Positions 15,358-36,916 of a stretch of DNA of 50,829 nucleotides are shown here, one piece after another. Under the pieces are notes generated by a model. It saw only the letters and a list, made by a program, of their open reading frames with translations. It did not search any database and was not told where the DNA came from. The first letter of the stretch is position 1; the number at the start of each line of letters is the position of its first letter. The position numbers were made by a program, and so were the translations under genes. This DNA is from Thermoplasmata archaeon (GTDB lineage Archaea > Thermoplasmatota > Thermoplasmata > Lutacidiplasmatales > UBA184): contig JAKIWS010000010.1 in the NCBI GenBank assembly GCA_022749895.1, forward strand, positions 1 to 50,829, written 5' to 3'.

Positions 15358-15390
15358 TCGGGGGGGTCCATGGACGAAAAGTTGGAATCC
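15358..15390 (+). repeat. Direct repeat copy A (diverged)
   Basis: It matches copies B (16246) and C (34204) at 30 of 33 positions compared with B. It begins tcgggggggt and ends gaatcc. Here the central ATT of the other copies is ATG, creating the start of a small open frame. Confidence 0.75.
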
Positions 15391-16100: not shown

Positions 16101-16245
16101 ACGCGCGTCCACCTGACGGCACTTCGGGTTCGATATCGGTTCGGTCATTCGGATGTGGCTTCCCACCGCAATCGCCCGGTCTGCGATGTCAAGGGGATGG
16201 CAAAAGTCCAGGTGTCGGAGCGGGATTCGCAAAGAAAGTTCAGCT
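16101..16245. other. Spacer before the left island repeat
   Basis: Non-coding as far as I can see, with no clear promoter or repeat until copy B begins. Confidence 0.3.
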
Positions 16246-16280
16246 GTCGGGGGGGTGCATTGACGAAAAGTTCGAATCCC
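16246..16280 (+). repeat. Direct repeat copy B, left end of the island
   Basis: A 35-base sequence starting gtcgggggggtgcattgacg and ending agttcgaatccc. It is identical to copy C at 34204-34238 at 34 of 35 positions (the difference is gaaaag versus gaatag). The match extends loosely upstream (agttcagctgtcg versus agttaggtgtcg). The ttcgaatccc end resembles a tRNA T-loop, as often found in integration sites, but no complete tRNA is present here. Confidence 0.85.
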
Positions 16281-16829: not shown

Positions 16830-17636
16830 GTGTCGCTGTCGGTCGATACGTCGGTCACCGTTGCGTCCGCTCTCGCGGGTGCCTTGATTGGATCGGTCGG
16901 TGCGACATTCTTGAGCGATTGGCTGGCCCGACGTAACGAGAAGGAACGCGAGTACGAGCAGGTCGTGCGGTCCTACCTCGCTCAGCTTCAGAACGCCGCC
17001 GATCTGCTCTGGGGAAGACTGAGAAACATGGTCCAACCAAGCCAGGGCACTCAACCCTCGCTGAACCCGGAGGATGAGACCTACTTCGTGCCCACTATGT
17101 TGTACGCCCTGGGCAAGTTGTTGGCCCAGAGATACATCATGAATCTGAAGGGTGCGTACGCGGAAATCGAGAGACTTAAGCCGGGCCTTGGTCTCTATTT
17201 GTTCGATCAGCTCGAGACGATCGACCGGACTTTGGGAGAAGTCAGTGCTACGATCTCGGGTTCCATGACGGGGACTGTTTCGGCGGCGGGGGTTGCCTAC
17301 CTGCCCTTCTACACGTACGACCGTCAGGCTTTGGCCGAAACGGTGATCTTGTTGACGGATGCCCACCCGGAAACGATCACCTATGTGGCGTTCCGAAGCT
17401 CGTATGATTCTCCGACCTCCTCCGTGCGAGTTACCCTCGAGCCCGCGAGGCAGTTTGTCACGAACCTCGGCAACTTTCTCTTGACAAGCGGGCTACCGGT
17501 GCGAGAGCCCACCGACCAGGTGATGAGCCTCTTAGTGGACGTGGCGCAGCGTCTCGAAGCCGAGACAGGGATCAAGACGGGTATCCGACCAACCAATCCG
17601 GCACCCCCTCTCTTCGCTCCCGCGCCCCCCACGTGA
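16830..17636 (+). CDS. Membrane-anchored protein with helical cytosolic part, unknown function
   Basis: A 268-residue protein with a GTG start. One N-terminal membrane helix (VTVASALAGALIGSVGATFLSDWLA, about residues 9-33) is followed by a strongly charged helical stretch (RRNEKEREYEQVVRSYLAQLQNAADLLWGRL) and a mostly alpha-helical body. The topology resembles small membrane sensors that start with a GALIG-type helix, but I do not recognise the family. It lies just inside the left repeat and is convergent with the 644-residue gene of the large cluster. Its base composition is lower in G+C than the left flank. Confidence 0.65.
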   Translation: MSLSVDTSVTVASALAGALIGSVGATFLSDWLARRNEKEREYEQVVRSYLAQLQNAADLLWGRLRNMVQPSQGTQPSLNPEDETYFVPTMLYALGKLLAQRYIMNLKGAYAEIERLKPGLGLYLFDQLETIDRTLGEVSATISGSMTGTVSAAGVAYLPFYTYDRQALAETVILLTDAHPETITYVAFRSSYDSPTSSVRVTLEPARQFVTNLGNFLLTSGLPVREPTDQVMSLLVDVAQRLEAETGIKTGIRPTNPAPPLFAPAPPT

Positions 17637-17793: not shown

Positions 17794-19728
17794 TCAAGGG
17801 GACGGGCGCGCGGTCGCGTTCCCCTGGCTCGGAAGGACCAGGTCGAAGGCGAGCCCCGAGGAGCCCGGTCCGTGCCCGGGTCGGGCTCGGCGGGCCATCC
17901 ACAGAGATCGGGATCCGTTGAGACCTCGCGCCCATCGGAGATACCGGTCGAGCCGTACGCCGATTTCCGGGAGGGCATGTCCTTCGACGGTGAACGGCCC
18001 AGCGGGGGACTGGACGGGTTGCGGTTGGAGCAAGAGCCCCAGGCGAAGGCTCACTCCGGGAACCGTTCCGCGCCGGTAGTACGGGACGGAGGACCCTGCG
18101 GGGTTCTCGAAGAGGAGGGGCACCCAGAAGTCCGGAACCTGGGTCCCCAGTCGGTAGAGGATCGGTGCGGTGGGGGGGGCTAGCGGGGCGGGGCTGGGTG
18201 TAGCGCCAGAGGGCACCGTAGGTCCCGCCGTCTGCGGCCGAAAGTAGCGCGAATGCGCGTCCACGCCGCGGTCGAGCGCCCCCGGAAGGGTTCGTTCGAT
18301 GCCCCAGCCGATCAAGGCCGCATTGTCCTTGACGATCTCGACCGTCTCCAGGGGGAGACCGTCCAGCACTTCGCTCGACGCCGAAGGGATCACGAGCTCA
18401 TCCGGAGAGTTCAAGGCGTCGCTGAGGGTGTAAGCCGTCCACGGGGGGGACGGAGGCGTGAGCGGAGCTACCGAGTCGGCCGTCGGTTTGACGATCACCC
18501 GTTGGCCGAAGCAGTCGGTCACGACGACCGTGTTGATCCTACCCCTCGTGCCGCAAGTAAGGCGGACCGGCACTGCCAGCCAGTCGTTCCCGTACAGCAG
18601 GGAGCACTCGGCGATCAGCATCTTGGGAACATCGACCGGCTCGGTCGTGAGCGAACCCCAATCGGTCTGACCGTCCTCGAACTCCCAGAATCGGCTGGTC
18701 GGCATTCCGGGGAAGACGATGGGATGAGGAAGGTAGCGGCGCTGCTCGGTCCGAAGACCGGCGGGAGCTGATTGGGGAACCGCACCGGCCGCAGCGCCCA
18801 GGTCGAAGGTGTGCCAGTCCGCGGTCCCCCCAGGGTAATCGGAGGAGTGCATCGCGAGGACATCCGGTCGGCTCGACGAATCCACGGCGTTCGAGATCAC
18901 CGTACATCCGTACCGAAGCCGCGGACCGACCCAGGACGGCGCGCCCTTCGGCTCGGAGTAGACCGACGAGCGGTATCGGACGAACCGCGCGAGCGCCGCG
19001 GTGAGTTCCGTGCGGACCGCTCCCCCGGCCCCGATCGCGGCCGTTGGGAGAGTCGAGGACGGGAGCGAGCCGCCCGGAGTCGCGGTCTGGGTCGCCTGGT
19101 AGACCGCCTCGCCGTCCGTTATCCGACCGGCGACGCCGGCCCGAAATGCGACGGCCGAGGGGTCGCCGAGGTCGTCGGGCGGGACGGTCGCCGTGATCCC
19201 GTAGCTGGCACTGCTGCGGAACCCCGCGAGAACCCCGGAGGGGTCGTGACCCGTCTGCGCGAACTCCTCGCGCAGGAACCGCTCGAACTGAAGTCCCATC
19301 TGGGCGCTCCCTCGGAGGCCGAGCGACACCGGCTCGCGCTCGATGAGGCACTCGAGGGGTTGCGTCGCGTCGAACGGCTCGGCGGATGTGGAGTTCGCGC
19401 CTTGGAAATCGGTCAAGGGGGCCGACGCGACCTCGTAGACGAGATCGATCGGAGTCCCCCCGTCGATCGCCTGCTGCTCGAGCATCTGCCCCTGCCGGCC
19501 GACCAGCCACAGTGGGTCGTAGACGCGGGCCCCCAGCGGGCCCGCGAGGGTCGGGTCACGACTTTGGGGGTCGATGCGCAGCCAAGCGCCCGGCACCGGG
19601 ATAGGTACGGAGGTGGGAAGGAGACTCAGCACTGGGCCCGGGTACCAGGGAAGGCCGAGACTCACCTCGGCCAGCTTCGCGGGGTCGGCGGCGCTGCCTT
19701 GCGTTAGGTGAATCCGACCTCCGCTCAC
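17794..19728 (-). CDS. Last gene of the DUF6603 cluster; large protein of unknown function
   Basis: A 644-residue protein starting at GTG 19728, which overlaps the stop of the preceding gene in the four bases GTGA, so the two are translationally coupled. The frame is open for about 145 further codons upstream, but there it is only the shadow of the neighbour. Recognisable stretches are LIAECSLLYGNDWLAVPVRLTCGTRGRINTVVVTDCFGQRVIV (about residues 370-415) and ALIGWGIERTLPGALDRG. From memory these recur in uncharacterised bacterial proteins found beside DUF6603 genes; this is not verified. There is no signal peptide and no membrane helix. Confidence 0.7.
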   Translation of the reverse strand: MSGGRIHLTQGSAADPAKLAEVSLGLPWYPGPVLSLLPTSVPIPVPGAWLRIDPQSRDPTLAGPLGARVYDPLWLVGRQGQMLEQQAIDGGTPIDLVYEVASAPLTDFQGANSTSAEPFDATQPLECLIEREPVSLGLRGSAQMGLQFERFLREEFAQTGHDPSGVLAGFRSSASYGITATVPPDDLGDPSAVAFRAGVAGRITDGEAVYQATQTATPGGSLPSSTLPTAAIGAGGAVRTELTAALARFVRYRSSVYSEPKGAPSWVGPRLRYGCTVISNAVDSSSRPDVLAMHSSDYPGGTADWHTFDLGAAAGAVPQSAPAGLRTEQRRYLPHPIVFPGMPTSRFWEFEDGQTDWGSLTTEPVDVPKMLIAECSLLYGNDWLAVPVRLTCGTRGRINTVVVTDCFGQRVIVKPTADSVAPLTPPSPPWTAYTLSDALNSPDELVIPSASSEVLDGLPLETVEIVKDNAALIGWGIERTLPGALDRGVDAHSRYFRPQTAGPTVPSGATPSPAPLAPPTAPILYRLGTQVPDFWVPLLFENPAGSSVPYYRRGTVPGVSLRLGLLLQPQPVQSPAGPFTVEGHALPEIGVRLDRYLRWARGLNGSRSLWMARRARPGHGPGSSGLAFDLVLPSQGNATARPSP

Positions 19729-22700
19729 GGTCCCTTCTTCGGATGGATCGAGTGTTGCTTCGCAGGGGGGGGAGCACCCCGGCCTGGACCGACGTGCCCG
19801 ATCGGAGGCGCCTGGCCCGACGCGAGGACGACGGGCAGCGTCGGCGGCAGGAACTGCGGGTACACCAGCGGTCCGACCGCCGAGAGCTCCGTGAGCGGCA
19901 TGTAGAGGGCGGGGAGATACTCGCCGGGGGCCGTCGGACCACCTTTGGATTGGGACAACGCGAGCAGGTCGACCATGCGGAGCTTCGTGAGGTCGATCGT
20001 CTCGAGGATGGTCTGAAGGACTAGGTCGAGGCCGTTCTCCGTCCACGAGAGGACGCCGGGAGGGGCGACCGCCAGGAGCCATGCCTGTGGTGCCTGCGCG
20101 CGCGGGGCGTTGTAGTGCACGGCGAGGCCGGTGGTCACCGTGTCGTCCGGGACCTGCTCGGGCCACTCGTCGACCAGCAGCCCGGCGACACCGGAGTCAG
20201 TGGTCGGAAACGGGTTCTCTCCGGTCTCCGACGTTAGGCAGGCGAGGGCGACCCGGGCAGCGTTGGGTGGGGTCGGTCGTGGAGTCGGGTCCGTTCCCCC
20301 CGGGATCGGGTAGTCGGGCGAGGCGACCCCCGCGGGATCTGCCGAAGAGTATGCGACCAGGCATCCGGTAGTACCTACGCCTCGCGGGTTGGTGACGCCG
20401 CCAACGGTCACATCGAGCCGTTGGCTCGGAGAAATCGTCGCATTCCCCAGGGTCAAGGTGACCTCGTTGGGAAGGGTCGTGGATACGGTGACGTTGGACA
20501 GGGGGATCGGCGTTCCATCCCCGAGCTGAGCCTGGTAGGAGCCCGGGGACGGGAAGACCGTTCCGGCCGGCGCGAGGAACGTCAGCTTCGCCGCGGCCGT
20601 GAGTGCCCCGTTCGACCCCGGCATGATCCGGACGACGTAGGTGGAGGTGTTCGGAACCGGGGGCGTGGAGGTCGATCCGCCGCCGATGGGATCGGCGACC
20701 GATACTTGAACGAACGACAGTCGGCCCGGAGTCGGCAAGGCCAGCCACCGGTCGTTCGGCAGTGCCGGCATCTGCCCGACTGTCCAGTGTGGTACGGCGG
20801 GGTCGGTCGGGTCGGGCATGAACGCGGCGCTTAGGGTCGTCGCGAGTTCGAGGCGTGAGAGGCCCGGGCGTACATGACTGCCTTGCTGGACCCAACGGGT
20901 GAGGGCGAGGTCATCGTTCCCAAAGAAAGACGGATTTGGGCCGAACCCCGCCTGAAGGCTCGCGGCGTCCCAAGGCGTGAACGACGGGACGACCAGGAAC
21001 CCTCGGCCGAGCAACGCTCGGATCGCCATCGTCGGGGAAGTAATCTCGTCCGGGGCGGGCCCGACCGGTGGGGGCGCGAGGGCGGCCTGCGCGGTCGAAA
21101 GACGATCCTGGAGGGTGGCCAGTACCCTTCTCGCCTGGGCGACGAGCGCGTCCAAATCCGGCCGCACAAAGAAGGAGTACGGGACGACCGGAGCTCCGGC
21201 GAGGGAGATCCCCATGGCGTAGAAGCCCGGGCTCGGGAGCCCGAGGTGAAGGATCTCGAGCCGGACCTGGGCGCCGACCGGCAAGGCGATGGGGACGGGG
21301 AAGCTCACGGAGCTCCCCGACGGCGTCGGGGCGACTGTCACGGTACTGGACGTCCCGCCGGCCCTGAAGGTCATCGAGTAGTCGGAGGGGAGCGCGGAGA
21401 ACGACATAGCGGGCGGTCCTAGGACCGTCGCGGTCACCGGACCGCCGGCCGGATCGGTAGCGACCTGCATCTGGAACTTCCAGGTCGCAGTCCCGCTCGG
21501 GCCATCGACGGCAACGCTCGCGCCGGTCAGTACCGCGGTCCCGGTGGGCCGGATTACGTACCAACCCGCGGAGAGCGACGCCTGGGGGTCGGCAGAGGTG
21601 ACGACGGACAGCCCGTAGTCCCCTGCGCCAGGGTTCGTAACGCTGTCCACGGTAATTGTGACGTGGGTGGCCGAGGGGATGTCGGAGGGGACCGTGAGCA
21701 CGGCCTCGTTCGGTTGCGGCCTAAGAACCTTCACTGGCATCGCCGAAGCGCCGCTTACTTTGATCACGTACTGAGCGGCCGCGAGTGGCCAGCGGGTCCC
21801 GGGCGGGGCCAACAACGTCACAGTTCCCTTCCCCAGCCCAAGTTTGCCCGCCGCGCCGGTCTTGAAGGACACCGTGTACGTGGAGGTGCTCCCGGCCACC
21901 GGGTGGGAGGGGGATAGCCCCAGCTTGGTTCCGGAGACGGCCCCAGTCCTCCCGGAGGGCCATGGGGGAACGGAGAGTGGAATCCCGAACCCGCTCGCCG
22001 AAAGCAAGGCCGTACGTATTCCCTGAGCCACGGTCTCTATCGAGCTATCCCGGGGGGGCGCCGTTGGAGCGTCCCAGGGTCCGAGCGAGGCAGTAATCGC
22101 GGCGACCATCGACGTGGCTACGGCGAGGAGGTTCCCGACCCGGGTCGTCGGGGGGTGCGACGCGACGGTCCCGAGCTCGCTCGTCAGATATGCGGGGTCG
22201 TCCGGCCGGGCCTTGAGGGGCCCGGGCACGTTGACGTCGCTCGGCGAGAGAGGCCGGGCATGGGTGAGGACGTCCTTCAACGCTCGTGCGAGTCCCAAAC
22301 ATCCGTGTAAACTAACGCTCCCGGCCGCGGCTCCCGGAGGGTCGTAGAGGATCCTCGGCCCAACGATCCCGTCCGCCGGATAGGGAGGCCCTCCAAACCC
22401 GGCGAAGTAGAACAGCCGCTGCTCGAGCTCTGCGACCATGGTCTCGTCGGACGCTGAGGCCATCTCAAGAAAATCGAGCGCGCCGATTCCGAGGTCTTCG
22501 AGCGTCACGTCGACGGTTTCCGCCGTGGGGGCGGGGCTCCCCGGCGGTGTGAATGTCACCCCCGCTACGATCTGCCCCGGCGAGGGCAGCATCGACGCGA
22601 GCCAAGCCTCGACTCGAGGTTCCGCGACGGCCCGGGGGGTCGAGGCCCAGGGGGCGGCGCCGGGCGCCGGGAGAGCGACCAGGACCCGTTGGGTGAAACC

Positions 22701-25700
22701 GCTCCCTCGTGTCGGGGTGTTCGCGACCATGACTTCGGGGGGTCTTCCCCCCTGTGCCGAGGTCTGGAGGATCGCACCCGCCCGCGCGGGGTTCCCCCGG
22801 ATGAGGTGGTACACGCTCTCCGCGAGCGCGAGGTCGCCGAGCGCTTCAACACAATGGTCGAGGATATCGAGCGCCGCCTGGATCACCGGCGTCGCGGTGC
22901 TCACGGTGATTGAGAGGTTGGGGGGTCCAGCCTGGGCGAGGGGCGTGGCGTAGATTGGCTGGAGCGCCGCGCCCGCACCGGTCGATCCGCCCTGGGCGGC
23001 GGCGTAGGCGCTCTGCAGGGCGAGCCCGTCGGGGACGGAGGAGTCGGACGTCGTCCCGGGGACCGTCGCGGTGAGGGGGTAGGCCTGCCTCAAGAACGGG
23101 ATGAGGAGAACCGCTTCGGGAGCCCCGGGGACGTTCGCGACCGCGGCGTCGGACAGTTCGAGTTCGAACCGAGACCCGAGGAGCGCCCCGAGCGTGTCCC
23201 CCTCGCGCATCCCGTCGAGGATTTCGAGCGCAAGTCGAGTCCACTTCGACGCGAGGTCGACGGCGAAGGTCTGCCCACCCGAGCTCGACCGGTGGGTGAG
23301 GTTCGCCGTGCGGAGGACGGCGAGGGCGGCCGCCTGGTCGAGCGACGGGGCATGGATGAACCCGGCGTTATCCTGCCTCGCCGCGACGGCCGCGGGCATC
23401 GCCGTGGCGACGGCCGCCGCAACGTTCGAGCGAAGTGCCGCAGCACCGGTCGCGGTGCGCGGAACGAGGTTTTGCTTCGAAACCGGGAGATTCGGGGCGG
23501 GCGAAGGGACCAAGGAGCCTGTTGGTGCAGGCGGTACAGGTAGGTTTTCGACCCACGAGTACGCTCCGAGAAAGATTCCGGGGTCCTTGGCGTGAGCCGC
23601 CACGAGCTCGGCGAGACGGCTCGTCGCGATGGAACTGATCCACGCATCGAGACGATGGCTGAAGATATCCAGAGATTGGGCGAACAATCGGTTCAGCTCG
23701 GAGGTCGCCCGACCGGCGATCCGTTGGATGGCGGGCGGTACGGGGGAAGTGAGATTGATCGCGGCCAGGGAGGCCGGACCAGTCGCCGCCCCCCCAGTCC
23801 GCTGAATGTGGGTCCGAGACGGATGTCGCGCAGCGGCCCCGGGTGCGAGTTGGAGCATGGGCGTCACCGGAATACCGGGGTCGAGGAGCCGAGCTTGGCG
23901 GAGCGTGAGGTAGAGAAGGGTGCGGGGGGAAGAGCCCCCCGGGAAGGTGTCCGCATTGATCGTGCCGATGTCGGCGTTCGCGAGCCAGTCGAGGTAAGTA
24001 CCGCTGCCCCCACCAGGGAGCGCGACCGTTCCGGGTAGAGGATCAGTCTCGGAGAGAGGGACGCCATCGTCGCGAATCGATGGAACGAGGGGCAGACTCG
24101 GTTGCGATTCGTAAAACTGGCGCATCGCCGCCCCCCATTCCCCGGGTCCGGACCCGCCGGGGACGGGGCCGGGCGAGGCCGGGAGTCCGAAGGCGGCGAG
24201 GGCCGGGGTGCCGGCCGGACTCGACAACCAGTTGAAGATGGTCGAGTACGGAACCTCCGCGGGGTACCAAACCGGCGGAGGCGGCGTTCCACTCTCGTAC
24301 ACCCATCCGGCCGGCACCCAGAGGTCGGCTCCGAGCATGACGCGTCCGTTGAAGTTGAGCGAAAGCCCATCCATGGCGAGCGACTGAACGAACGAGTCTC
24401 CCCCGGGCGGTGAATCACTACTGGCCCCGGGCGAGATGTGCGGGACCAGGGCGAACGCGGCGGCCCACTCGCCTCGGGCGGCCCGGAGGAATTCGACGAG
24501 TCCCGCTCGCGGAAGGAGAGGGTCGGCCCCCGAGGCGGTCGGCCACCGGTCCAGCGCCGTGACCGGATGGACTCCGTACAGTGTGCTACCGAGGCGGACG
24601 CTCGGCACGCGGCCGCGCCCTGAGACGTACGACGTCGCCCAAACCCGGAGCGCGCTAACCGTGTCGGCCGGAAGTCCAATCAGGTTCGAGAGGTAGAACT
24701 CTCCCGTAGCGGGCCAGAGGGCGGTGAGCATATCGATGCTGTCCTGCACATCGCTCTTCTCCGCCCCGAGCACATGGTCGAACGTGGCCGGGTCAACACG
24801 AAGGGCGGAGCTCAGCGTCAGCCCATCGTCGGCGAAGGCGGAAGCAGACTGGGTTCGAGGGCTACCGAACTCCAGATCCAGCGAAGCCGCGTAATCTGAG
24901 ACGCGCCGGGTCATGGCAGCGGGCTCGCGGAGCGAATTCTTGGTCGGGTCGCCGTACCGTACGAGGGCGAGCCCGTCGGTGCGATGATGGTGGCCAAGCA
25001 TGGTTTCCAGCAGCGCCCGACCTGCGGCGGCATTTTCGTTCCGAAGCCCGAGGACGATGATTCGACTGAAATTCGTCGTCCCCGCCGGGACCTCGATCGT
25101 CACCCCCAGGCCGCACTTTACCGCGGAGGTACTCCCTCCGTCGAAGTCCAACGCCCAGTGCATCGCCGAGTCGACCGGGAGCACGGACGCGTCCCCCCCC
25201 GGCATCCCCGACGGGTCGGGGGCGGCGGCGACGGTCGAACTCAACGGTAGGAACGTCCCGACGAGGGGAGTCGGCGACGCGTCGCTGTAGGCCAGCGCGA
25301 TGAACTGGTCCGGCAAACCGTCGAAGTGGGGGCTGACGCGCCCACTCGGGAGCTTCCCCGCCGGATCGGTGGCGGTTACGATCCAGGACGCGCGGTTCGA
25401 GCCATACCGGCCCGCGAGGCTCGCCCACGCCGCCTCGACCGCCTTTGCCGCGGTCGCGGGTAGCGTGGTGAGGCCGCTCAGGGCCGTTCCGGCGGGTACC
25501 GCTCCCCAGAAACTTCGTCCGTCCCGCACCTCCCCTGGGGTCAGTCCGTCCGAGTGAGTGTCGACGTGGATCCGATCGGGGAAGACCCGAATGCACAACT
25601 GCCACACGAGGGGGGAGGAGGGCGATGGGCGGAGGCGGGTTTCGATCCGGACTGGGAGGAGCAAGAGAGGGAAACTCGCATCGAGAGCGGGAAGGGCAAG

Positions 25701-25850
25701 CTCGACGACCGGGGGCCCCAAGGACGTTCGGAATCCGGTCGACGAGTCCTGGGAGCGAATGTTGGCCCCTTTGACCGAGGTCGCTGACGGTGCTGGCACT
25801 CCCCCAGGGCTAGGTGTGGACCGAGGATGCGCGCGAGTCGGGACGGCCAT
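19725..25850 (-). CDS. Giant (2041 aa) protein of the DUF6603 cluster
   Basis: ATG 25850 lies 2 bases after the stop of the preceding gene. After a low-complexity N-terminus comes PLLLLPVRIETR (about 61-72) and RVFPDRIHVDTH (88-99), a pair of motifs I recall from uncharacterised bacterial proteins of similar size. The middle is a long alpha/beta region. Two related beta-sandwich modules lie near residues 1315-1420 and 1730-1840; each has a TSTY-V strand, a LAPPGT/LAPAGT turn and a VTNPG/VTNPRG loop before an SSADP/TSADP end. A coiled-coil-like ARRVLATLQDRLSTAQAALAPPP lies near 1575. The C-terminus has LLVDEWPEQVPDD and YLPALYMPLTELS. There is no signal peptide and no membrane helix. Function unknown; it is probably a structural scaffold. 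Confidence 0.8.
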   Translation of the reverse strand: MAVPTRAHPRSTPSPGGVPAPSATSVKGANIRSQDSSTGFRTSLGPPVVELALPALDASFPLLLLPVRIETRLRPSPSSPLVWQLCIRVFPDRIHVDTHSDGLTPGEVRDGRSFWGAVPAGTALSGLTTLPATAAKAVEAAWASLAGRYGSNRASWIVTATDPAGKLPSGRVSPHFDGLPDQFIALAYSDASPTPLVGTFLPLSSTVAAAPDPSGMPGGDASVLPVDSAMHWALDFDGGSTSAVKCGLGVTIEVPAGTTNFSRIIVLGLRNENAAAGRALLETMLGHHHRTDGLALVRYGDPTKNSLREPAAMTRRVSDYAASLDLEFGSPRTQSASAFADDGLTLSSALRVDPATFDHVLGAEKSDVQDSIDMLTALWPATGEFYLSNLIGLPADTVSALRVWATSYVSGRGRVPSVRLGSTLYGVHPVTALDRWPTASGADPLLPRAGLVEFLRAARGEWAAAFALVPHISPGASSDSPPGGDSFVQSLAMDGLSLNFNGRVMLGADLWVPAGWVYESGTPPPPVWYPAEVPYSTIFNWLSSPAGTPALAAFGLPASPGPVPGGSGPGEWGAAMRQFYESQPSLPLVPSIRDDGVPLSETDPLPGTVALPGGGSGTYLDWLANADIGTINADTFPGGSSPRTLLYLTLRQARLLDPGIPVTPMLQLAPGAAARHPSRTHIQRTGGAATGPASLAAINLTSPVPPAIQRIAGRATSELNRLFAQSLDIFSHRLDAWISSIATSRLAELVAAHAKDPGIFLGAYSWVENLPVPPAPTGSLVPSPAPNLPVSKQNLVPRTATGAAALRSNVAAAVATAMPAAVAARQDNAGFIHAPSLDQAAALAVLRTANLTHRSSSGGQTFAVDLASKWTRLALEILDGMREGDTLGALLGSRFELELSDAAVANVPGAPEAVLLIPFLRQAYPLTATVPGTTSDSSVPDGLALQSAYAAAQGGSTGAGAALQPIYATPLAQAGPPNLSITVSTATPVIQAALDILDHCVEALGDLALAESVYHLIRGNPARAGAILQTSAQGGRPPEVMVANTPTRGSGFTQRVLVALPAPGAAPWASTPRAVAEPRVEAWLASMLPSPGQIVAGVTFTPPGSPAPTAETVDVTLEDLGIGALDFLEMASASDETMVAELEQRLFYFAGFGGPPYPADGIVGPRILYDPPGAAAGSVSLHGCLGLARALKDVLTHARPLSPSDVNVPGPLKARPDDPAYLTSELGTVASHPPTTRVGNLLAVATSMVAAITASLGPWDAPTAPPRDSSIETVAQGIRTALLSASGFGIPLSVPPWPSGRTGAVSGTKLGLSPSHPVAGSTSTYTVSFKTGAAGKLGLGKGTVTLLAPPGTRWPLAAAQYVIKVSGASAMPVKVLRPQPNEAVLTVPSDIPSATHVTITVDSVTNPGAGDYGLSVVTSADPQASLSAGWYVIRPTGTAVLTGASVAVDGPSGTATWKFQMQVATDPAGGPVTATVLGPPAMSFSALPSDYSMTFRAGGTSSTVTVAPTPSGSSVSFPVPIALPVGAQVRLEILHLGLPSPGFYAMGISLAGAPVVPYSFFVRPDLDALVAQARRVLATLQDRLSTAQAALAPPPVGPAPDEITSPTMAIRALLGRGFLVVPSFTPWDAASLQAGFGPNPSFFGNDDLALTRWVQQGSHVRPGLSRLELATTLSAAFMPDPTDPAVPHWTVGQMPALPNDRWLALPTPGRLSFVQVSVADPIGGGSTSTPPVPNTSTYVVRIMPGSNGALTAAAKLTFLAPAGTVFPSPGSYQAQLGDGTPIPLSNVTVSTTLPNEVTLTLGNATISPSQRLDVTVGGVTNPRGVGTTGCLVAYSSADPAGVASPDYPIPGGTDPTPRPTPPNAARVALACLTSETGENPFPTTDSGVAGLLVDEWPEQVPDDTVTTGLAVHYNAPRAQAPQAWLLAVAPPGVLSWTENGLDLVLQTILETIDLTKLRMVDLLALSQSKGGPTAPGEYLPALYMPLTELSAVGPLVYPQFLPPTLPVVLASGQAPPIGHVGPGRGAPPPAKQHSIHPKKGP

Positions 25851-25852
25851 CC

Positions 25853-27100
25853 CTACGTCCCCGTTGTCGGCCCGGGCGGAGGGGATGCCGGGTTCGACGG
25901 CACCATCGAGCTCGCGTGAAAAGCTACCCAGGCCGGATGCCGCAACAGGATGTAGGCCATCGAGGCGGCGTCAGAGTTCCACAGGATGTCGGTGTCCGGC
26001 GTTAATTGCGGCTTGATAGAGACCGTAGGGGACGCGGTCGGATCGACCGTGGGGATGAGGCTTGGGCTCAGAAATTTTGTTCCCGCGGGCAAGTTGCCCC
26101 AACTAACGACCCCCCACTTGTCGACCTGGACGCCGAGAGCTGCATTCGCAGGCTCGAGGCCGAACCCGAGCTCGCCGGGAACCTCCTGAAAGACGAAAAA
26201 GATCCCGTGGGGGTAGTTCGCCGTGTCCCCCGTTCCCACCGCATCTGCGCCTTTAAAGGGCCACGCGTAGAACGTTAGGTCGGGCGGGAGCTGATTCCGG
26301 AACAACGGTTGGATAACGGCCTTTGACGGATCGACGACGAGCTCCGGCAGTCCGGGCGCGGGCGTGGGATTCGGCATCGCAGGGAGCGCGTAAACATGAA
26401 CGTTCGGGTACTGATGGAGAAGATCCCCTCGGAGCAGGAGGAAGAGGTGGGGAGGATTCGAGCCGGTGGGATTCTGGTTCGCACCCAGCGCGCTGCCGAG
26501 GTCCCAGTTCTCGATGCCATCGATATCAAAGAAGGAACTGTAGATCGCGGCCAGGTCCGGGGTGGTTCCGGTGGGTATCGAGGCGAGTTCGGCGGCGATC
26601 GCAGCGGTGGCGTCCCAGAATTGCTGGAAGAACGTCACGCTCTCCTTGATGGGCAGATTGTACCAACGAAGGAGCCGCAGCGCCTCCTGGTTGACTCCCA
26701 CCAGGAACGATTCGATGGCGCGCTGATCGGGCTCCAGCAGCGAGATCGAATTGACCGGGATGTTCCCGACGCCCGGGAGAAGGAAGTCTTGCGAGACCTC
26801 GGCCAAGTACCGACCCATAGGGATGGGGAAGCTTGGGGCGACCGTCAGTGGGTTCAACTGGGCCGCTCCGGTGTTCGCCGGCGGCCAGTTCATTCCACCA
26901 GGAAGGGGAACCAGGGCCTGGGTCCGAGGGACGATCGTATTCTGAGGGAGGAGCCCCTTCATCACGTCCACGGCGAGACTGTCGAGAGTGACGTTGGAGG
27001 CGGGAGGGCCAGCGACCTGGCTCGCCTCGACCTGGGTCCACAACTGTGTAATTCCTTGAAGGGCCTGCAGCTGGGCCACTCCGTTCCCACCCCCCGCCAT
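25853..27100 (-). CDS. 415-aa protein of the DUF6603 cluster
   Basis: The start ATG overlaps the stop of the upstream gene by one base (TGATG), with a good ribosome-binding site gggaggagg before it. Landmarks are FLVGVNQEALRLLRWYNLP...FFQQFWD (about 130-160), HLFLLLRGDLLHQYPNVHVYAL (about 215-236), PLFRNQLPPDLTFYAWPF, HGIFFVFQEVPGELGFGLEP and a C-terminal SMAYILLRHPAWVAFHAS. From memory, the same order of motifs occurs in uncharacterised bacterial proteins; no function is known to me. No signal peptide. Its place between the 558- and 2041-residue proteins, with overlapping stops and starts, suggests a stoichiometric partner of them. Confidence 0.75.
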   Translation of the reverse strand: MAGGGNGVAQLQALQGITQLWTQVEASQVAGPPASNVTLDSLAVDVMKGLLPQNTIVPRTQALVPLPGGMNWPPANTGAAQLNPLTVAPSFPIPMGRYLAEVSQDFLLPGVGNIPVNSISLLEPDQRAIESFLVGVNQEALRLLRWYNLPIKESVTFFQQFWDATAAIAAELASIPTGTTPDLAAIYSSFFDIDGIENWDLGSALGANQNPTGSNPPHLFLLLRGDLLHQYPNVHVYALPAMPNPTPAPGLPELVVDPSKAVIQPLFRNQLPPDLTFYAWPFKGADAVGTGDTANYPHGIFFVFQEVPGELGFGLEPANAALGVQVDKWGVVSWGNLPAGTKFLSPSLIPTVDPTASPTVSIKPQLTPDTDILWNSDAASMAYILLRHPAWVAFHASSMVPSNPASPPPGPTTGT

Positions 27101-28776
27101 CAGCCTCCTCCCAGATTGGAGGCGCCGGTCGCCAGGGCTCCGAGAACACGGGCAGGGGGCACGAGCGTAATCCGGCCGTAGCTCAAGCGTGCGATCACGA
27201 CCTGCGGGCTCGTGCCGAACGTCACGCCCTGTCGCGCCCAGAGCGATCCCGAAGGTCGCATGACTCGACGCGTGGCGGGAGAGACGAACGGAGCGTTGAT
27301 TCCGGCCAGCGGGAGGGCGGCATGGACGGTGATGGTGGTCGGCACGCCCGCGATGGTTGCTCTGAGTCGAAGCTGGCCGTGCACCCCCGCGGTCAGCGCG
27401 ATCTGGGAGGCGGAGGGCAGCCGACCTAGGTGTTTTGAGAGCATGCGCCCCACCACTGCAAACGAGAACTGACTATGGCGAAGCACGTGGTTGGCTTCGC
27501 GAAGTCCCGGATACTGCTGCCAGGCGGCGGCGAGGAGCATGGTGGCATGGCTCTGAACCACTTTGCTCCCGATTCCCGCGAGGCCCCGCCATCGCGGGTC
27601 CAGGTTCAGTTGCGGAAACCAGACGGCCTCGTTCGTGAGGTGCGTTGTCGGCTCGTAGACGAAATCACCCCCGTAGATCGGCGGCGCCACCGCGGGGTCG
27701 GGTCCGGGCCCTCCGGACGTGGCCGGGGTCGCTCCGGATTCTTGGAGCAACGTCTGAACGTTCGTCTGAAAGGTGGCGGCGTGGACGTCGCCGGTGGACG
27801 GCCATTCGGGCGGAGCCCCGCCCAACGGCCGAAGGGCCCCGCCGAGCTGAACGGTCCCGGCGTCGGCCGCGGAGCTCACTCCCCAGGCCGTTCCGGGGTT
27901 CGACACGTCCATGGGCCGCGCGCCGACGGTAACGCCGTGGAGGCCAGTGAGCGGTGTGGGCCGAAGGCGCCGGACCAGGCTCTCAAAGTCGCCGGACGCC
28001 GTCGCCTGAAAGGCGAACGAATAGTAGAACGGGAGTCTCAAGCCCGGTTTCGTGTTCGCGTTCCACGCTGGTCCGGTGGTCGTTGTGCCGGTGGGAAGCG
28101 GGTTTCCGAGACCGACCTGCGCGGTAGCGTCGAAGGCGGGTACGAGGAACGCCGAGTAGGAGGTCCCCTCGCTCAACGCCCGCGGGGAGATTACGCGACT
28201 GAACACCTGACTCGGCGTCTGGTTGAGCAGCGAGCTCAACGGCGAACCCCCTGTGCCTCCCGTAACTTGGACGTGCGCCCATGCCCACGATTCTGATAGG
28301 GGTGGCAAAGCGGTAGGGTCAGTGATCGTGATGGACGGAAGCGGCTGGCTCCCGCTCGCGAGTTGGAACTCGCTGCTCTCCAGGACTAGCAAGGCAACCC
28401 AGGGGAGCAGGCGACCCGCGCTGTCCGGCCCGGCGGGCGTGAATATCCAGGGGAACGACGCATCGCTCAGCTCGACGGCCGCAAGGCGGTTCGACTCGAA
28501 GGACGGCGTTCCGTCCTTCGGCTCTGAACGGATGAACTGGTTGGGATGAACTCCCACCACGTCGCCCGGTCCCACGAGGCTGACCGTTGTGACTGGAGCC
28601 CGCGTCGGGTTGGACGCGCCCGGGAGAGGCTGTCCGGAAAGGTCGATCTCGACCTGGAGCTGGTACCGGAGGGGAACGGCCCCGCCAACCGGAGGGGTGG
28701 TAATGGTCGCCGCAAGCCCTTGGCGGACGAAGCTGTAGAACCCGTAGTTCTCCGACGTAGGGGGTGTCCCGCTCAT
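27100..28776 (-). CDS. 558-aa protein of the DUF6603 cluster
   Basis: The ATG overlaps the TGA of the DUF6603 gene in the four bases ATGA. Recognisable parts are LPWVALLVLE (about 125-135), the stretch PPIYGGDFVYEP and AVWFPQLNLDPRWRGLAGIGSKVVQSHATMLLAAAWQQ (about 385-425). The last resembles a conserved 'LNLDPR...AAGLGTRVVQ' segment that I recall from uncharacterised bacterial proteins in similar clusters (not verified). It is otherwise rich in beta-strand and Pro/Gly. There is no signal peptide or membrane helix. Function unknown. Confidence 0.75.
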   Translation of the reverse strand: MSGTPPTSENYGFYSFVRQGLAATITTPPVGGAVPLRYQLQVEIDLSGQPLPGASNPTRAPVTTVSLVGPGDVVGVHPNQFIRSEPKDGTPSFESNRLAAVELSDASFPWIFTPAGPDSAGRLLPWVALLVLESSEFQLASGSQPLPSITITDPTALPPLSESWAWAHVQVTGGTGGSPLSSLLNQTPSQVFSRVISPRALSEGTSYSAFLVPAFDATAQVGLGNPLPTGTTTTGPAWNANTKPGLRLPFYYSFAFQATASGDFESLVRRLRPTPLTGLHGVTVGARPMDVSNPGTAWGVSSAADAGTVQLGGALRPLGGAPPEWPSTGDVHAATFQTNVQTLLQESGATPATSGGPGPDPAVAPPIYGGDFVYEPTTHLTNEAVWFPQLNLDPRWRGLAGIGSKVVQSHATMLLAAAWQQYPGLREANHVLRHSQFSFAVVGRMLSKHLGRLPSASQIALTAGVHGQLRLRATIAGVPTTITVHAALPLAGINAPFVSPATRRVMRPSGSLWARQGVTFGTSPQVVIARLSYGRITLVPPARVLGALATGASNLGGG

Positions 28777-31700
28777 GTGCGACCCGCGGCGTAACTGGCG
28801 CTCACTTGGAGCGTCCCACTCTCCTGAGGGTGGACGGCGAGGTAGGCCCCCAGCTGAGCCTCGGCGCCCACTCGGGTCGTGGCGACCCTCGTGATGTCCG
28901 AACGGCGAGTCGCGGTCGCGGTGTCGGTGACCAAAAACCCCGGCGGAGTTGGAAGGAAGCTCGCTCCGCTCGTGGACTGACCGAACTGCAACGTACCGGA
29001 TCGTTGGCCGGGGGCGGTTGCGGCTCCGCCGAGCCGTGCAAATTGCACGACCTGCTGGGCGCTGAGGGCCATCAGAGGCATCATCGCAGGCTCGATCGCG
29101 ACGAGGACGCTAGGGAACAGGGGGTCCCCGACGTAGTAGGGGTCGTAGGTGAGGGTGGCAGGTTGGTATGAGCCGACGGAAAAGCCGTCCGAGCCGAACG
29201 CGATCCCGCTGTTCATCGGTTCAAAGGGGGGCTTCGACACCTTGTCCGCGTCGCTAAGGTTTTGGAACTGCCCTCGGGCGAACGAATCCTGTTGGACGAC
29301 AGTGTTCGGGACCGTGGACGTCCCGACCTTCACCGCGGTGATCGTGGCCTGGGAGACGTCGCCGAGGGGAGCTCCTTCGACGGTGTCCAGAAGCGTGTCC
29401 AGGGGAGCGTGCTTCTGCCGAAAGACGAGGCTTCCGGTGGGATGGACGAGGAGCGGGGTCGACCCCGAGGTCGGCTGCCCTAGCGCAGGAGCTGCGGAGT
29501 TCGCGAAGGTGAATCCCGTCTCGACTCCCGTAGGTAGTACGGCAGCCCAGTTGCGCGAGTCCTGTACGGCACCGTTCAGGATGTCGAGGAGTATGACCGC
29601 CGGTATAGTGACGACCGACGCGGGGTCACCGAACGTAGCGTCCTTCTGGAAGTGGACGGGGACGCCAAGGATGTCGAATGTAGCGTCGGCATGGGCATGG
29701 AAAGGCCCTGGGCCCTCGAGGGATACGTGTACGGAGACGGAGAAGAGGGTCGTGTTTCCTTGGAGTACCTCGAGCGAGCCGTAAATCTCCACGATAAAGT
29801 GAATGGAAGGTTTGGTCGTGACAAGCGCGTCAAACCCGAGATTTCCCTTGATGGTGAAACCGTCGGCGCTTACGTCGAGGAGGAATTCGGCCCCCGCTTG
29901 AACCGAGTTGGAGGCCGAGGCGATGTACGACTGGAGCGAGAGCGAACAACTGCTCTGTGCAAGTCCGATCGATACGCGCTGAAGGGCGGGAAAGTTTGGC
30001 GGTGCCTGGAAGCCCGGATAGAAGCCGCCCGCCGACGCAGCGAAGCTGGAATCGGTTCCCCACGTGAGGACGAGCGCAAACTGGCCAGCGAGCGCGAATC
30101 CTGCGATCTGGGAGTCGTAGATTTCAGCGTAGATGGAGAGAATCTTCTTGCCGAAGTCGACGGTGCCGACGATCTCGAGCTGGATCAGCACGATGTCGGG
30201 TTTCGAGCCGTCTAGCGTTGGGAAGCCGACCCGAAGTTGGCCGATGAGGGCTAGGCGGATCGGTTCCGGTACCTCGAGGATAAGGCCTATCTCGGCTTGG
30301 ACGATCTGCGGGGTCCCCCACCCGATCTCGACGATCGGGCCGAAGACGAAGCGCCCCAAGGCCACCGGAAAGATCGTGCCGACCTCGCTAACGATCTGGG
30401 GGGCGTGCGCGATCGGGTCCTCCGGGAACAGGATATCGTCGAGGCTGTGGCTCTTGACGGCGGCTTGGAGAGCGTCCAGCGCCATCGTCCTGTTGATGCC
30501 CATGAGGCCCCCGAGGCCGGTTAGTGTGAACCCGAAGCCCAGCTGGATAGGAGGAAACTGGGCCGTGACGATCAGGAGAAGTGAGTATCCCTGCTGACCG
30601 TTCGGAAGACGGGTATCTAGTATGCCGATGACAGTGACCTGAACAGTTAGGACCGGGACATCGATTCCTAGCTCCAGGATGCCGCTGTACTCGCCTGACG
30701 TGGCGTCGTACCCGACATACCCGCCACCCGAAACGGCGACGGCGTCGACCGCGAACCCAAGCCCGTCGGGCGGCCTGAAGGCCAAGCCTATCGGCAGGGC
30801 GTTCGCCGGTTTCGAACTTCCGCCGCTGGCGAGCTGGGATCGAAGCACAACGCTCAGGCCGACCTTATCGATGGTCGCGGAGATAGGTCCCAAGACGAAG
30901 CCGCCGCTCACGGCTAGCGATAGGGTGAGGCCCGTCCCGTCGGCACCCAGGCCGATAGTAATTGAGTCGAGAGAGACCGGACCGAGAGTTTGGTGGATTG
31001 CTATGTTTATCTCGATCGATCCACTTCCGCTAAAATGGAGCCCTGATTTTGACGACCATATTACGCCAAGATTCGCGAACTTGACGGTCTGATTCAATGT
31101 ACCCAATACGCTTGAGATGAAGGAATCGGAGTCCGGATCACCAAAATTGATGTTAATCTGGGCATTCTTGGTTCCTAGGCTCAGCACCACCTCAGGATTT
31201 CCGCCAGGATCAACTACTTGGATGGAGCAAGTCAGGTCCGAGATTCGGAGTGCATTGGATTGGTCGCCACCGAACAAGTAGATCGATCGTGAAACGTCCG
31301 ACGGGGTGTAGGCTGCTACAAGGCCCAGTGGCTTCGATCCGTCCAGCACGAAATCTGTCGCTACCTTGATTGCTCCTCCGGGGCGAAATTCCAACCCTCC
31401 GAACCACGCTGCAGTGGGAAGCCCGATCAGAGTAACTGACCACTCGCCAAATGTCGCCCCTGTTGGGACCCCGTTCGCGATAGCGAGCAAGGCCACTCCT
31501 ACCGGCGCTCCCGTGCCGTCGCCGACGGGAATCGGAAGGGCAGATAGCGAAAGAACGTCTGTTGTGGCGCTAATCGTGTCCGAGACAAGGACTGGCAAGC
31601 TGAGCTGCTTAACCAAGGAGGTGTTTGCGTTTGCCGGGGCGTAGTACTTTTGGAGCAGCGTCGGGTCGGGTGTGCCAATGGTTGAGGCTACCCCGAAGAC

Positions 31701-32342
31701 GGCCAGGAGATCGGAAAGAATCTGGAGGAAGGCTCCAGGATCAAAGGACGATCCGCCCCACGCATAGACGTCGCTTAGAAGCTTCCGAGGGTTTACGACC
31801 AGAGCCACACGTTCAAGGTGGATCTTTGTCTCGACGTAGTTCACTCGACCTGCAGCCCCAGCGACGTCTACGGACCGGCTCTGAATGATCCCGACCGCAT
31901 GCAACACGGCATGCAGCCAGGGCAGGTCCGACCTGAGGCGGTCATCGACCAGGTTCCCGAGGAGATTCTCAGCGAACTTTCCCCAGTCGAAATTGGGGTC
32001 ATTGAAGGGTGGAACAGTGGAAAGGGAAGGGTCACCGCTCAGGGTGGAAATGCTGGAGACAATCTGTACGATCTCCTGAAGGAGGCTGCGGACATCGTCA
32101 GGAGTCAGGTCCGAGCCCGAAGAGATGCTCGAGGAAACGGTGGCAATTATCGCGGAAATGTCCTTTACATCGACGAGGGTTTGAAGGGCCGTTAGATCGG
32201 TAGAAGTAAGATCAGGCACAGCCCATCCTTGTCGCCGCAGATTGGACGTGAATATTCCGGGAGTCGCGAGTGAGTCCGCGAGACCAGCGAGACAATCAAC
32301 GAGATGGGTCGCGAGCGCTGAGAAGAACTCTCGACCGGGCAA
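28773..32342 (-). CDS. DUF6603-type protein, first gene of the cluster
   Basis: A 1189-residue protein. The N-terminal third is helical (FFSALATHLVDCLAGLADSL; repeated Ser/Thr-rich helices to about 130). The core (about 430-900) is a long series of amphipathic beta-strands such as SGSIEINIAIHQTLGPVSLDSITIGLG, IQLGFGFTLTGLGGLMGINR and FAGFALAGQFALVLTWG-like stretches, which I recognise as DUF6603. The alternating strands would suit an extended beta-structure with a hydrophobic groove. That is only an inference, but it would fit a lipid role given the acyltransferase gene next door. The start TTG 32342 follows a TATA box by a short leader. The 5' half is AT-richer than the 3' half. Confidence 0.75.
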   Translation of the reverse strand: MPGREFFSALATHLVDCLAGLADSLATPGIFTSNLRRQGWAVPDLTSTDLTALQTLVDVKDISAIIATVSSSISSGSDLTPDDVRSLLQEIVQIVSSISTLSGDPSLSTVPPFNDPNFDWGKFAENLLGNLVDDRLRSDLPWLHAVLHAVGIIQSRSVDVAGAAGRVNYVETKIHLERVALVVNPRKLLSDVYAWGGSSFDPGAFLQILSDLLAVFGVASTIGTPDPTLLQKYYAPANANTSLVKQLSLPVLVSDTISATTDVLSLSALPIPVGDGTGAPVGVALLAIANGVPTGATFGEWSVTLIGLPTAAWFGGLEFRPGGAIKVATDFVLDGSKPLGLVAAYTPSDVSRSIYLFGGDQSNALRISDLTCSIQVVDPGGNPEVVLSLGTKNAQININFGDPDSDSFISSVLGTLNQTVKFANLGVIWSSKSGLHFSGSGSIEINIAIHQTLGPVSLDSITIGLGADGTGLTLSLAVSGGFVLGPISATIDKVGLSVVLRSQLASGGSSKPANALPIGLAFRPPDGLGFAVDAVAVSGGGYVGYDATSGEYSGILELGIDVPVLTVQVTVIGILDTRLPNGQQGYSLLLIVTAQFPPIQLGFGFTLTGLGGLMGINRTMALDALQAAVKSHSLDDILFPEDPIAHAPQIVSEVGTIFPVALGRFVFGPIVEIGWGTPQIVQAEIGLILEVPEPIRLALIGQLRVGFPTLDGSKPDIVLIQLEIVGTVDFGKKILSIYAEIYDSQIAGFALAGQFALVLTWGTDSSFAASAGGFYPGFQAPPNFPALQRVSIGLAQSSCSLSLQSYIASASNSVQAGAEFLLDVSADGFTIKGNLGFDALVTTKPSIHFIVEIYGSLEVLQGNTTLFSVSVHVSLEGPGPFHAHADATFDILGVPVHFQKDATFGDPASVVTIPAVILLDILNGAVQDSRNWAAVLPTGVETGFTFANSAAPALGQPTSGSTPLLVHPTGSLVFRQKHAPLDTLLDTVEGAPLGDVSQATITAVKVGTSTVPNTVVQQDSFARGQFQNLSDADKVSKPPFEPMNSGIAFGSDGFSVGSYQPATLTYDPYYVGDPLFPSVLVAIEPAMMPLMALSAQQVVQFARLGGAATAPGQRSGTLQFGQSTSGASFLPTPPGFLVTDTATATRRSDITRVATTRVGAEAQLGAYLAVHPQESGTLQVSASYAAGRT

Positions 32343-32373
32343 TCCCAGCGCTTCCTGGGGAGGGACCGTGTGG

Positions 32374-32392
32374 TAGTATATAGATACCTTTT
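32374..32392 (-). promoter_or_regulatory. TATA box and upstream element of the DUF6603 cluster
   Basis: Read leftward this is aaaaggtatctatatacta, the clearest archaeal promoter in the window. Transcription would begin near 32350, just before the TTG at 32342, and probably covers all five genes down to 17794, since no gap in the cluster exceeds 2 bases. Confidence 0.6.
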
Positions 32393-32638
32393 CTGATTCA
32401 GGACCATGTCCCCGCGGGTGGGCGTTGAGCAGCGTAACTCTTCCGTCTTGGGATGCTCGGGCTGGTGCACTGGTTTGCCTGGCGGGTGGTAGGGCGGGCG
32501 GTGCGCGAAAACGGCGTCCTGGTGGCTGAAGGCTTTCGCATGCCGTTATCGTTAGGATGTGCAGTTTGAAATCTACAAACTACCACCCTCCGATCTGTGG
32601 TGGGGGGTAGCGCACAGTACCGGGAGGTTCGAGGTCCC

Positions 32639-33820
32639 ATGGCGGTTGCAGCATCGAACGTAGTTGTACTCGTACCCGGACTCGGAGGGGCGAACCTAAC
32701 TCAGGGAACTAGGAAACTCTGGTTTAGCTTTTCAGTCAATAACGACGCTATTGGCGGGTTCAACCCAGACCCCACGTATGGCGCAGTTCCCAAACAAGTG
32801 CTCACTTCGGGCAGTCTCTCCTTGACGATTCCTACCGTTGATGGGCTCGGTGTGGATATCGCGATAGTTTACCCGGAAATCAAGCGGTATCTGAAGCAAA
32901 AGGGATTCACGATAGTGGAGGGGCGAGATTGGGATAACGCGAGTTGGACCCCACCGTCAGCAAGTTCCATCTATTTCGAATTCCTCTACGATTGGCGCTA
33001 TGATTCTCGGCAGACCGCGTTAGAACTTCAGCGATTCCTTGCGAACGTCGTTGCTCAAAATTATCCAAGCGCCAACATTCATTTGATTTCGTACAGCACG
33101 GGCGGATTGGTCAGCCGATACTATCTGTCACAAGCTGGGGCGGGAAGTTCGAACATTAAGACGCATTTCTTGCTAGGCGTACCTAACCATGGGGCACCCA
33201 AAGCCTACCGCATCCTGAGGACAGGCGTAGGGTTCATGGGCCCACATTTCCCGCTAAACCGATTTCCGATTGGGCAGGGTGCTTTAGCCCACCACCTACC
33301 CTCGGTGTACCAATTGTTGCCAAGTGACCAGTATGACAACTATGGGTATCCCTCACTGGTTCATTTCATGGGCAAGACTGAGCCGAAAGTCCAGAATTGC
33401 TATCTGTCCGAGAAATCGAGTATCTTCGCGAGTGGAATCGCGCTCGCGTACTACGCTCTGGACTATGTGCCGGGGGCAACTCCCGCTGCTCAAGATCCCC
33501 TGGCGAAGACTTTGATTGAGAACGCACTAGCGTTTCACGCTGCACTTGGCAAGTCCACATTCCTTCCCAACGGGAAGAGCTATGCCGTCTACTCGGACAA
33601 TCAGCCCACTCTAGCTTACGTAGACTTCTCAGCTTCCAAACCCGGTTCGGGTTCTCCTCAATTGCTTCCGATTGGAGACGGTACGGTGCCGGCCCAGAGC
33701 GTGATCGACCTCGACGGGCTGGAGGAGGTTAAGAAAGTTGACAATGTCGGTCACGTCAAGCTGCCCGGCAACGCAGCAGTCCTCGACTACATCTACAATA
33801 CAATCAAGCCATTCCTGTGA
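32639..33820 (+). CDS. LCAT/PDAT-like alpha/beta-hydrolase (acyltransferase or phospholipase)
   Basis: A 393-residue protein of the lecithin:cholesterol acyltransferase family. VVVLVPGLGGANL forms the oxyanion-hole loop, FEFLYDWRYDSRQ is the family's YDWR motif, ISYSTGGLVSRYYL carries the nucleophile serine, GVPNHGAPKAYRIL is the conserved block after it, IGDGTVPAQSV supplies the catalytic Asp and VGHVKLPGN the His. The catalytic triad is complete. It has no signal peptide and begins almost directly with the first strand, so it may be cytosolic. ATG 32639 was preferred over GTG 32597 because it has gggaggttcg before it. It is divergent from the DUF6603 gene and clearly lower in G+C than the flanks. 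Its substrate is probably a membrane or storage lipid. Confidence 0.82.
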   Translation: MAVAASNVVVLVPGLGGANLTQGTRKLWFSFSVNNDAIGGFNPDPTYGAVPKQVLTSGSLSLTIPTVDGLGVDIAIVYPEIKRYLKQKGFTIVEGRDWDNASWTPPSASSIYFEFLYDWRYDSRQTALELQRFLANVVAQNYPSANIHLISYSTGGLVSRYYLSQAGAGSSNIKTHFLLGVPNHGAPKAYRILRTGVGFMGPHFPLNRFPIGQGALAHHLPSVYQLLPSDQYDNYGYPSLVHFMGKTEPKVQNCYLSEKSSIFASGIALAYYALDYVPGATPAAQDPLAKTLIENALAFHAALGKSTFLPNGKSYAVYSDNQPTLAYVDFSASKPGSGSPQLLPIGDGTVPAQSVIDLDGLEEVKKVDNVGHVKLPGNAAVLDYIYNTIKPFL

Positions 33821-34238: not shown

Positions 34239-34380
34239 TGTTGCAGGAGAATTCGGGCCCCCCGCATCGACGTTTGGATTGTGCCCTCTCCTACTCGCGG
34301 ACGATGGGAGCCAGGCGGGGTATGTGCCACGCAAGTTCTTCCGCTCGAGGGGGCCTCGGCCCCCTCGAGAGAGCCGCACC

Positions 34381-36811: not shown

Positions 36812-36916
36812 TGTCGGGGGGGGGATTTGAACCCCCGACCCCAGGATCTCTCCAGCGGGTGCGTGGTCGCGCCCGCTCTATGAGTCCCGTACTCTACCAG
36901 GCTGAGCCACCCCGAC
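36812..36916 (-). tRNA. tRNA with CAU anticodon (Met, or Ile2) with a 31-base intron
   Basis: Read leftward from 36916: acceptor GTCGGGG pairs with CCCCGAC, the discriminator is A at 36812, and CCA is not encoded. The D-arm is GCTC/GAGT, the anticodon stem CGGGA/TCCTG, the anticodon CAT at 36882-36880, the variable loop 5 bases and the T-arm GGGGG-TTCAAAT-CCCCC. A 31-base intron (36878-36848) sits one base after the anticodon, the canonical archaeal position. It folds as AGCGGG/CCCGCT, as needed for a bulge-helix-bulge splicing site. Elongator Met is most likely; an Ile2 tRNA (CAU read as AUA after agmatidine modification) cannot be excluded. It lies between the kelch/PKD gene and eS1. Confidence 0.92.

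Follow-up and report, generated by a model that had tools for sequence, protein, structure and literature searches.

The stretch of DNA analysed here, a window of 50,829 bases (66.6% GC) on contig 2 of the 2.02-Mb genome of a Thermoplasmata archaeon (GCA_022749895.1; 83% complete, 106 contigs), carries on its minus strand five large genes, termed A to E, that make up a genuine cassette of fixed order and look like one undescribed system. In other loci the gene upstream of A occupies a variable slot, and one large group of slot proteins ends in a small domain that is nearly private to the cassette. From these genes we predict, with a confidence that approaches an even chance but stops short of it, an assembly that lacks signal peptides and bears an interchangeable enzyme. 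DUF6603 is the sole name found for any of its components, and wider searches of the open-access literature returned nothing on this gene set, although it may be in print elsewhere.

Component A (28773..32342, minus strand; 1189 aa, TTG start) matches Pfam PF20248 (DUF6603) over model positions 1-501 of 502, with E 2.3e-109 and 366.7 bits against a cut-off of 27. Pfam assigns this family no function, and the term 'DUF6603' is absent from the open-access literature searched. Components B (27100..28776, 558 aa), C (25853..27100, 415 aa), D (19725..25850, 2041 aa) and E (17794..19728, 644 aa, GTG start) follow on the same strand and are without a Pfam match at E values up to 1, leaving A as the only component named by Pfam. 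NCBIfam (E up to 1), PADLOC-DB and PHROGs (both E up to 0.1) gave no match for any of six window proteins, the sixth being an LCAT-like lipase or acyltransferase (32597..33820, plus strand; 407 aa, GTG start) encoded divergently from A. The sizes of the five genes and their junctions (ATGA, TGATG, a 2-base gap and GTGA), as read in a first-pass annotation made by a model from the sequence alone, agree with the coordinates, in which A and B overlap by 4 bases, B and C by 1 base and D and E by 4 bases, with 2 bases between C and D. It is plausible that a single putative promoter drives A to E, a TATA-like element being visible by eye upstream of A (32377..32386, minus strand). Each of the five has profile relatives in dozens of other loci, and they are therefore genuine genes rather than chance frames.

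A scan for relatives of A in one genome per species, covering 84,980 species, gave 193, of which the best 80 were used. The locus set consists of the window and 92 related loci, with profiles iterated over their open reading frames (ORFs). These loci were picked via A (one, L010, via E), so that the frequency with which A stands alone is not readable from them, and one duplicate record (L034, of L011) is included in the locus counts and excluded from the trees. With the window counted, A is present in 92 of the 93 loci, B in 88, C in 82, D in 81 and E in 63, many loci stopping before E at the end of the 10-kb flank or of the contig. The order A-B-C-D-E is kept in 82 of the 84 loci with at least three components, and all five are present in 60 loci; the two exceptions (L043 and L087) have D-E upstream of A, possibly in a rearranged or doubled cassette. 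Same-strand junctions number 86 for A/B, 73 for B/D and 58 for D/E, and opposite-strand junctions zero. This conserved order upholds the proposal of the first-pass annotation that the five genes are linked partners of one apparent undescribed system, but their number has to be revised, as B and C form a single ORF in 80 of the 82 loci having both (they are split only in the window and L055) and the components are therefore better counted as four than as five. Relatives of A occur in Bacillota, Actinomycetota and archaea. By tblastn, A was matched in 13 plasmid records, D in 11 and E in 13, largely the same records, from Streptomyces, haloarchaea, Gemmatirosa, Rhizobium and Paraburkholderia. 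Annotated domain names on the relatives include several of surface type (VCBS, lamin tail, BGTF surface and peptidoglycan-binding), and a crude rule found signal-peptide-like N-termini in 0 of 92 A, 0 of 90 B, 1 of 88 D, 0 of 63 E and 4 of 80 slot proteins, compared with 79 of 687 other flanking ORFs. A phage origin found no support in the collection of viral contigs searched, where none of 42 pattern matches was a relative.

We defined the slot as the longest same-strand ORF of at least 200 aa lying between -600 and +350 bases from the start of A. Such an ORF is present in 80 of the 91 loci with A outside the window, and in 47 of these 80 it lies within -10 to +30 bases; the window itself has no slot ORF on the strand of A. 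There are usually one or two slot genes in a locus. Twenty-nine upstream proteins, including one from the opposite strand, were scanned singly against Pfam; the families returned were S8, Nal1/trypsin-like, M64, M14, PhoD, tyrosinase, PLD, Beta-lactamase2, DUF4056 and DUF2515, and 13 proteins had no match. A further scan took in 71 of 82 listed slot ORFs, from a list that omits nine loci and ORFs longer than 1450 aa, and the 25 of 42 families listed from it include S8 (10), PhoD (8), M64 (7), Nal1_C (4), DUF7800 (3), tyrosinase, M14 and Reprolysin_4 (2 each) and singles such as PLD (1). Peptidases and PhoD-type proteins are the commonest contents of the slot, and lipid handling, which the first-pass annotation had offered as a reasonable hypothesis for the locus, is not borne out as the general theme. 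Enzyme genes also occur at the other end of the cassette, as in Nocardia, where an S8 peptidase gene overlaps the end of E, and in Streptomyces anthocyanicus a lone E gene adjoins a convergent alpha/beta hydrolase.

The content of the slot changes along the tree of A. Seven slot labels, assigned by hand with 33 rows unlabelled, require 14 changes on this tree, where the minimum possible is 6 and the mean of shuffled labels is 29.8; a slot enzyme is thus retained for a time and then swapped. On the tree of A the window, a Nitrosotalea and a Chloroflexi bin group together (support 95) and are joined by two Neobacillus and an Acidobacteria bin (support 96). Across these six rows the slot genes are the LCAT-like gene (window, divergent), a gene with no Pfam match (L037), DUF4056 (L015), DUF2515 (L022 by scan, L024 by similarity) and PLD (L023). 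Phyla are intermixed on the tree of A, with 27 changes for 13 groups and a minimum of 12, which is compatible with transfer and no proof of it. Both trees exclude six A rows of less than 800 aa, and the slot-label tree excludes L013 and L054 as well.

Slot proteins of the S8 type and of the Nal1/trypsin type have in common a C-terminal domain of about 100 residues (30 ORFs), in which a W, a G, a P and an L are invariant across 22 aligned copies. When these 22 copies were scanned no Pfam family matched below E 0.05, and no credible match was found among solved structures. In 24 whole cassette genomes, selected as 14 with a domain-bearing slot gene and 10 without, there were 16 domain matches in the 14 and none in the 10, and each of the 16 falls, by its coordinates, on a slot gene. 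Among 690 genomes sampled by kinship alone (296 and 394), there were four strong matches, three of which (G117, G295 and G1027) adjoin cassettes, and two further weak ones (E 4e-4). In the searches of the 24, 296 and 394 genomes, not every first-look candidate was scored in each genome (up to 150, 16 and 12, respectively, per genome), and matches may accordingly have been missed. The domain is tied to the cassette strongly but not strictly.

The LCAT-like protein matches Pfam PF02450 with E 1e-6 and 28.7 bits, above the curated cut-off of 21, and the match is partial, its best stretch covering 112 of 392 model positions. By eye it has an SYSTGG nucleophile motif and no signal peptide, and a single-sequence search up to E 0.01 found no solved relative. 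The first-pass annotation had asked whether an LCAT-like gene recurs beside the cassette; it is present in 1 of the 93 loci, and uniqueness to this locus was an outcome named there in advance as counting against that part of its reading. The gene and DUF6603 are each missing from 60 of 60 relatives examined, 36 of them of the same genus and many incomplete. A gene just beyond the island described below (37855-39450) is strongly matched, at E 1e-150 or better, in 30 of 37 genomes of the genus, its own counted, and by this gene the closest relative is the genome G025. Apart from breaks near 4-6 and 11-15 kb, G025 and the window are collinear as far as 15231, and their collinearity resumes at 36811; in between, G025 has 1.47 kb of other DNA rather than a clean empty site. 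In a second genome, G010, about 4 kb stands where the window has 25 kb. The right edge coincides with the 3' end of a tRNA gene (36812..36916, minus strand; Rfam RF00005, 54 bits) with an anticodon read by eye as CAT and an intron-sized insert, which ARAGORN, unlike Rfam, did not detect. At the left edge (16232..16255, plus strand) the sequence flanking the tRNA gene of G025 recurs in 23 of 24 bases by eye. The cassette and the lipase gene therefore lie on an island of about 20 kb (about 16.25-36.81 kb) inserted at a tRNA gene, on which no integrase was recognised. A second, degenerate copy resembling a tRNA 3' end was seen by eye at 15360-15400 and would suggest more than one insertion at the tRNA gene.

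The predicted structure of A (pLDDT 77, pTM 0.47) has a helical N-terminal part followed by about 27 long antiparallel strands between residues 384 and 904. On average these modelled strands are amphipathic, with an odd-even hydrophobicity difference of 2.83 against 1.23 for shuffled strands and none of 500 shuffles as high; taken singly, 14 of the 27 fall below 0.05. The long amphipathic beta structure that the first-pass annotation had read from the sequence is thereby borne out at the level of the model. Foldseek returned six matches to A at E 0.001 or better, every one a large beta barrel or belt and with a low TM-score. ApoB-100 is listed, its best row having a query-normalised TM of 0.12, and among the 50 matches listed all are at or below 0.15, for which reason the likeness of the model to ApoB-100 and beta barrels is generic. 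The model of E (pLDDT 69, pTM 0.68) had no PDB match in Foldseek at E 0.001 or better. When PDB sequences were searched with a profile for each of A, B-C, D and E, designed coiled coils aligned with the helical beginning of A and the other rows were chance matches, and a viral structure library searched with Foldseek yielded nothing useful.

To see DUF6603 independently of the cassette, A genes were sampled by Pfam family alone among the kin of three centres, Phaeodactylibacter, Natrarchaeobius and Streptomyces, with the centres included. Matches were found in 13 of 296 genomes (Phaeodactylibacter phylum), 5 of 294 (Natrarchaeobius phylum) and 37 of 394 (Streptomyces class), and 50 of 61 matches were used, after the three centre genomes, a further piece of a gene already counted and seven weak matches had been removed; four of the weak matches were above cut-off. 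In the 31 of these loci without a cassette, a divergent B-C is present in 17 (profile comparison probability 98, E 1.3e-12) and another giant protein, matching neither D nor E, in 19; DUF6603 is therefore found in clusters of more than one type. The loci L165 to L214 include a second type of DUF6603 cluster, made up of A, a divergent B-C, the other giant protein and often a further gene, with one lectin-like match and one Ntox6 match below cut-off among these further genes.

The conserved linkage, the fusion of B and C and the slot with its near-private domain suggest that A, B-C, D and E could form one large multi-protein assembly that holds an interchangeable enzyme encoded beside it, and that one large group of these enzymes may dock via the common C-terminal domain. 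The loaded assembly would be formed in the cytoplasm and would act outside the cell or at its surface after non-classical export or lysis. Enzymes of the kinds found in the slot are usually exported, and it is this, together with the few signal peptides and the surface-type domain names, that would point to a place of action outside the cell, reached by a non-classical route. The enzyme carried in the window would be the LCAT-like lipase, with a putative activity; it is the natural candidate because it is on the island with A and has the same phyletic pattern, and its chances are about evenly balanced because its strand breaks the slot rule. Stated in full, as a new kind of enzyme-carrying assembly that spread over bacteria and archaea by transfer, with a four-protein chassis, a slot refilled with different enzymes (peptidases, PhoD-like, tyrosinase, phospholipase, lipase), docking of one large group of them by the domain and extracellular deployment without a signal peptide, the proposal has a probability that we put distinctly under one half.

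Several observations weigh against this proposal. In a control of 71 other flanking ORFs no Pfam family exceeded 2, but the control was drawn after removal of slot-like ORFs, and its lack of S8, PhoD and M64 is therefore partly built in. About half of the 71 slot ORFs fall outside the enzyme families named above, and the set includes some incorrect ORFs. The fourth strong domain match, in the genome G113, is a near-full-length, stand-alone relative of the Nal1/trypsin-type slot proteins (482 aa; locus L222, 9379-10827, minus strand), in a genome without DUF6603 and with none of A to E in 20 kb around the gene. The LCAT-like protein lacks the shared domain, and its gene, unlike slot genes elsewhere, lies on the strand opposite to A. 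By a crude rule, hydrophobic stretches resembling transmembrane segments occur in 16 of the 92 A ORFs and in 29 of the 90 B ORFs. Finally, in neighbourhoods of up to 20 kb, the 50 A genes drawn by family were accompanied by the cassette, or a cut part of it reaching at least C, in 19 cases and by B only in 8, with none of B to E detected by these profiles in the remaining 23.

The principal alternative is a cytoplasmic conflict or defence system, in which the giant proteins would detect an intruder and then set free or switch on, within the cell, the effector enzyme encoded next to them. Its sporadic distribution, its presence on plasmids and on an island, and the lack of signal peptides by the crude rule are all in keeping with such a system, and diverse effectors with a small domain common to trypsin-type and S8 enzymes are reminiscent of the effector-associated domains described for NTP-dependent conflict systems (PMC7159879). 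We nevertheless consider this explanation unlikely, although it is the strongest of the alternatives, as the six window proteins match no PADLOC-DB family (0 families, E up to 0.1), A to E contain no Pfam NTPase domain, tyrosinase, M14, PhoD and the surface-type domains were judged unusual for defence effectors, and the common C-terminal domain has no Pfam match, although published effector-associated domains need not all be in Pfam.

Rather improbable, in our view, is a lipid-binding or lipid-modifying assembly, in which A would serve as a lipid-binding amphipathic beta belt, with the LCAT-like enzyme acting on it. The averaged amphipathicity of the strands (2.83 against 1.23), the presence among the Foldseek results of large beta barrels and of the beta belt of ApoB-100, and the joining of lipase and cassette on one island would suit such an assembly, but the TM-scores listed indicate generic likeness, just 14 of 27 strands are singly below 0.05, the lipase accompanies a single cassette and the majority of named slot enzymes are not lipid enzymes. 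A purely intracellular scaffold or compartment, enclosing a hydrolase or oxidase for a metabolic task, seems more improbable still; few or no signal peptides, a fixed gene set and usually one or two slot genes per locus would suit it, but relatives carry surface-type domains and we know of no pathway that unites the kinds of enzyme in the slot. If the cassette does carry swappable enzymes, microbes would have in it a novel means of deploying enzymes, and the common C-terminal domain would be a ready-made docking tag. It is rare for genes encoding more than 4000 residues to keep their order from Actinomycetota to haloarchaea with no function found for the set, and the cassette supplies a context for DUF6603.

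The island also carries a gene for a Kelch/PKD protein of 790 aa (34279..36651, plus strand) and an ORF of 268 aa (16830..17636, plus strand), and nothing ties either to the cassette. The former and a large Kelch-repeat protein (45439-49308) are probably surface proteins. To the left of the island, the plus strand has at 15530-16100 a pair of short overlapping ORFs (84 and 108 aa) that by eye look like a toxin-antitoxin pair of the RelB/RelE type. The genome encodes an archaeal-type ribosomal protein S27e (a control search gave matches in four archaea and one bacterium, four of them above cut-off), and archaeal rRNA was not found in this incomplete assembly. It is by S27e and the insert in the tRNA gene that we take the host to be an archaeon.

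Extracellular contractile injection systems and toxin complexes are likewise large multi-gene sets with changeable cargo. The cassette differs from the former in that A to E, the only proteins searched for this comparison, have no sheath, tube or baseplate homologues by Pfam or PHROGs, and from Tc-like complexes in having no toxin-complex domain in A to E by Pfam up to E 1. The predicted long, up-and-down amphipathic strands of A resemble those of ApoB-100 and large outer-membrane beta barrels, but A has low TM-scores, no signal peptide by the crude rule and relatives in Bacillota, Actinomycetota and archaea, and it does not have the fold of ApoB-like lipid transport proteins over a large part of its length (TM 0.12). 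The LCAT-like protein of the window scores above the Pfam cut-off for the LCAT family, yet with partial coverage of the model. NTP-dependent conflict systems are described as having one core with alternative effectors, including trypsin-like and S8 peptidases, and small shared domains (PMC7159879). Although A to E lack a Pfam NTPase and the shared domain has no Pfam match, the cassette is like the systems described there in its alternative effectors and small common domains arranged around one core.

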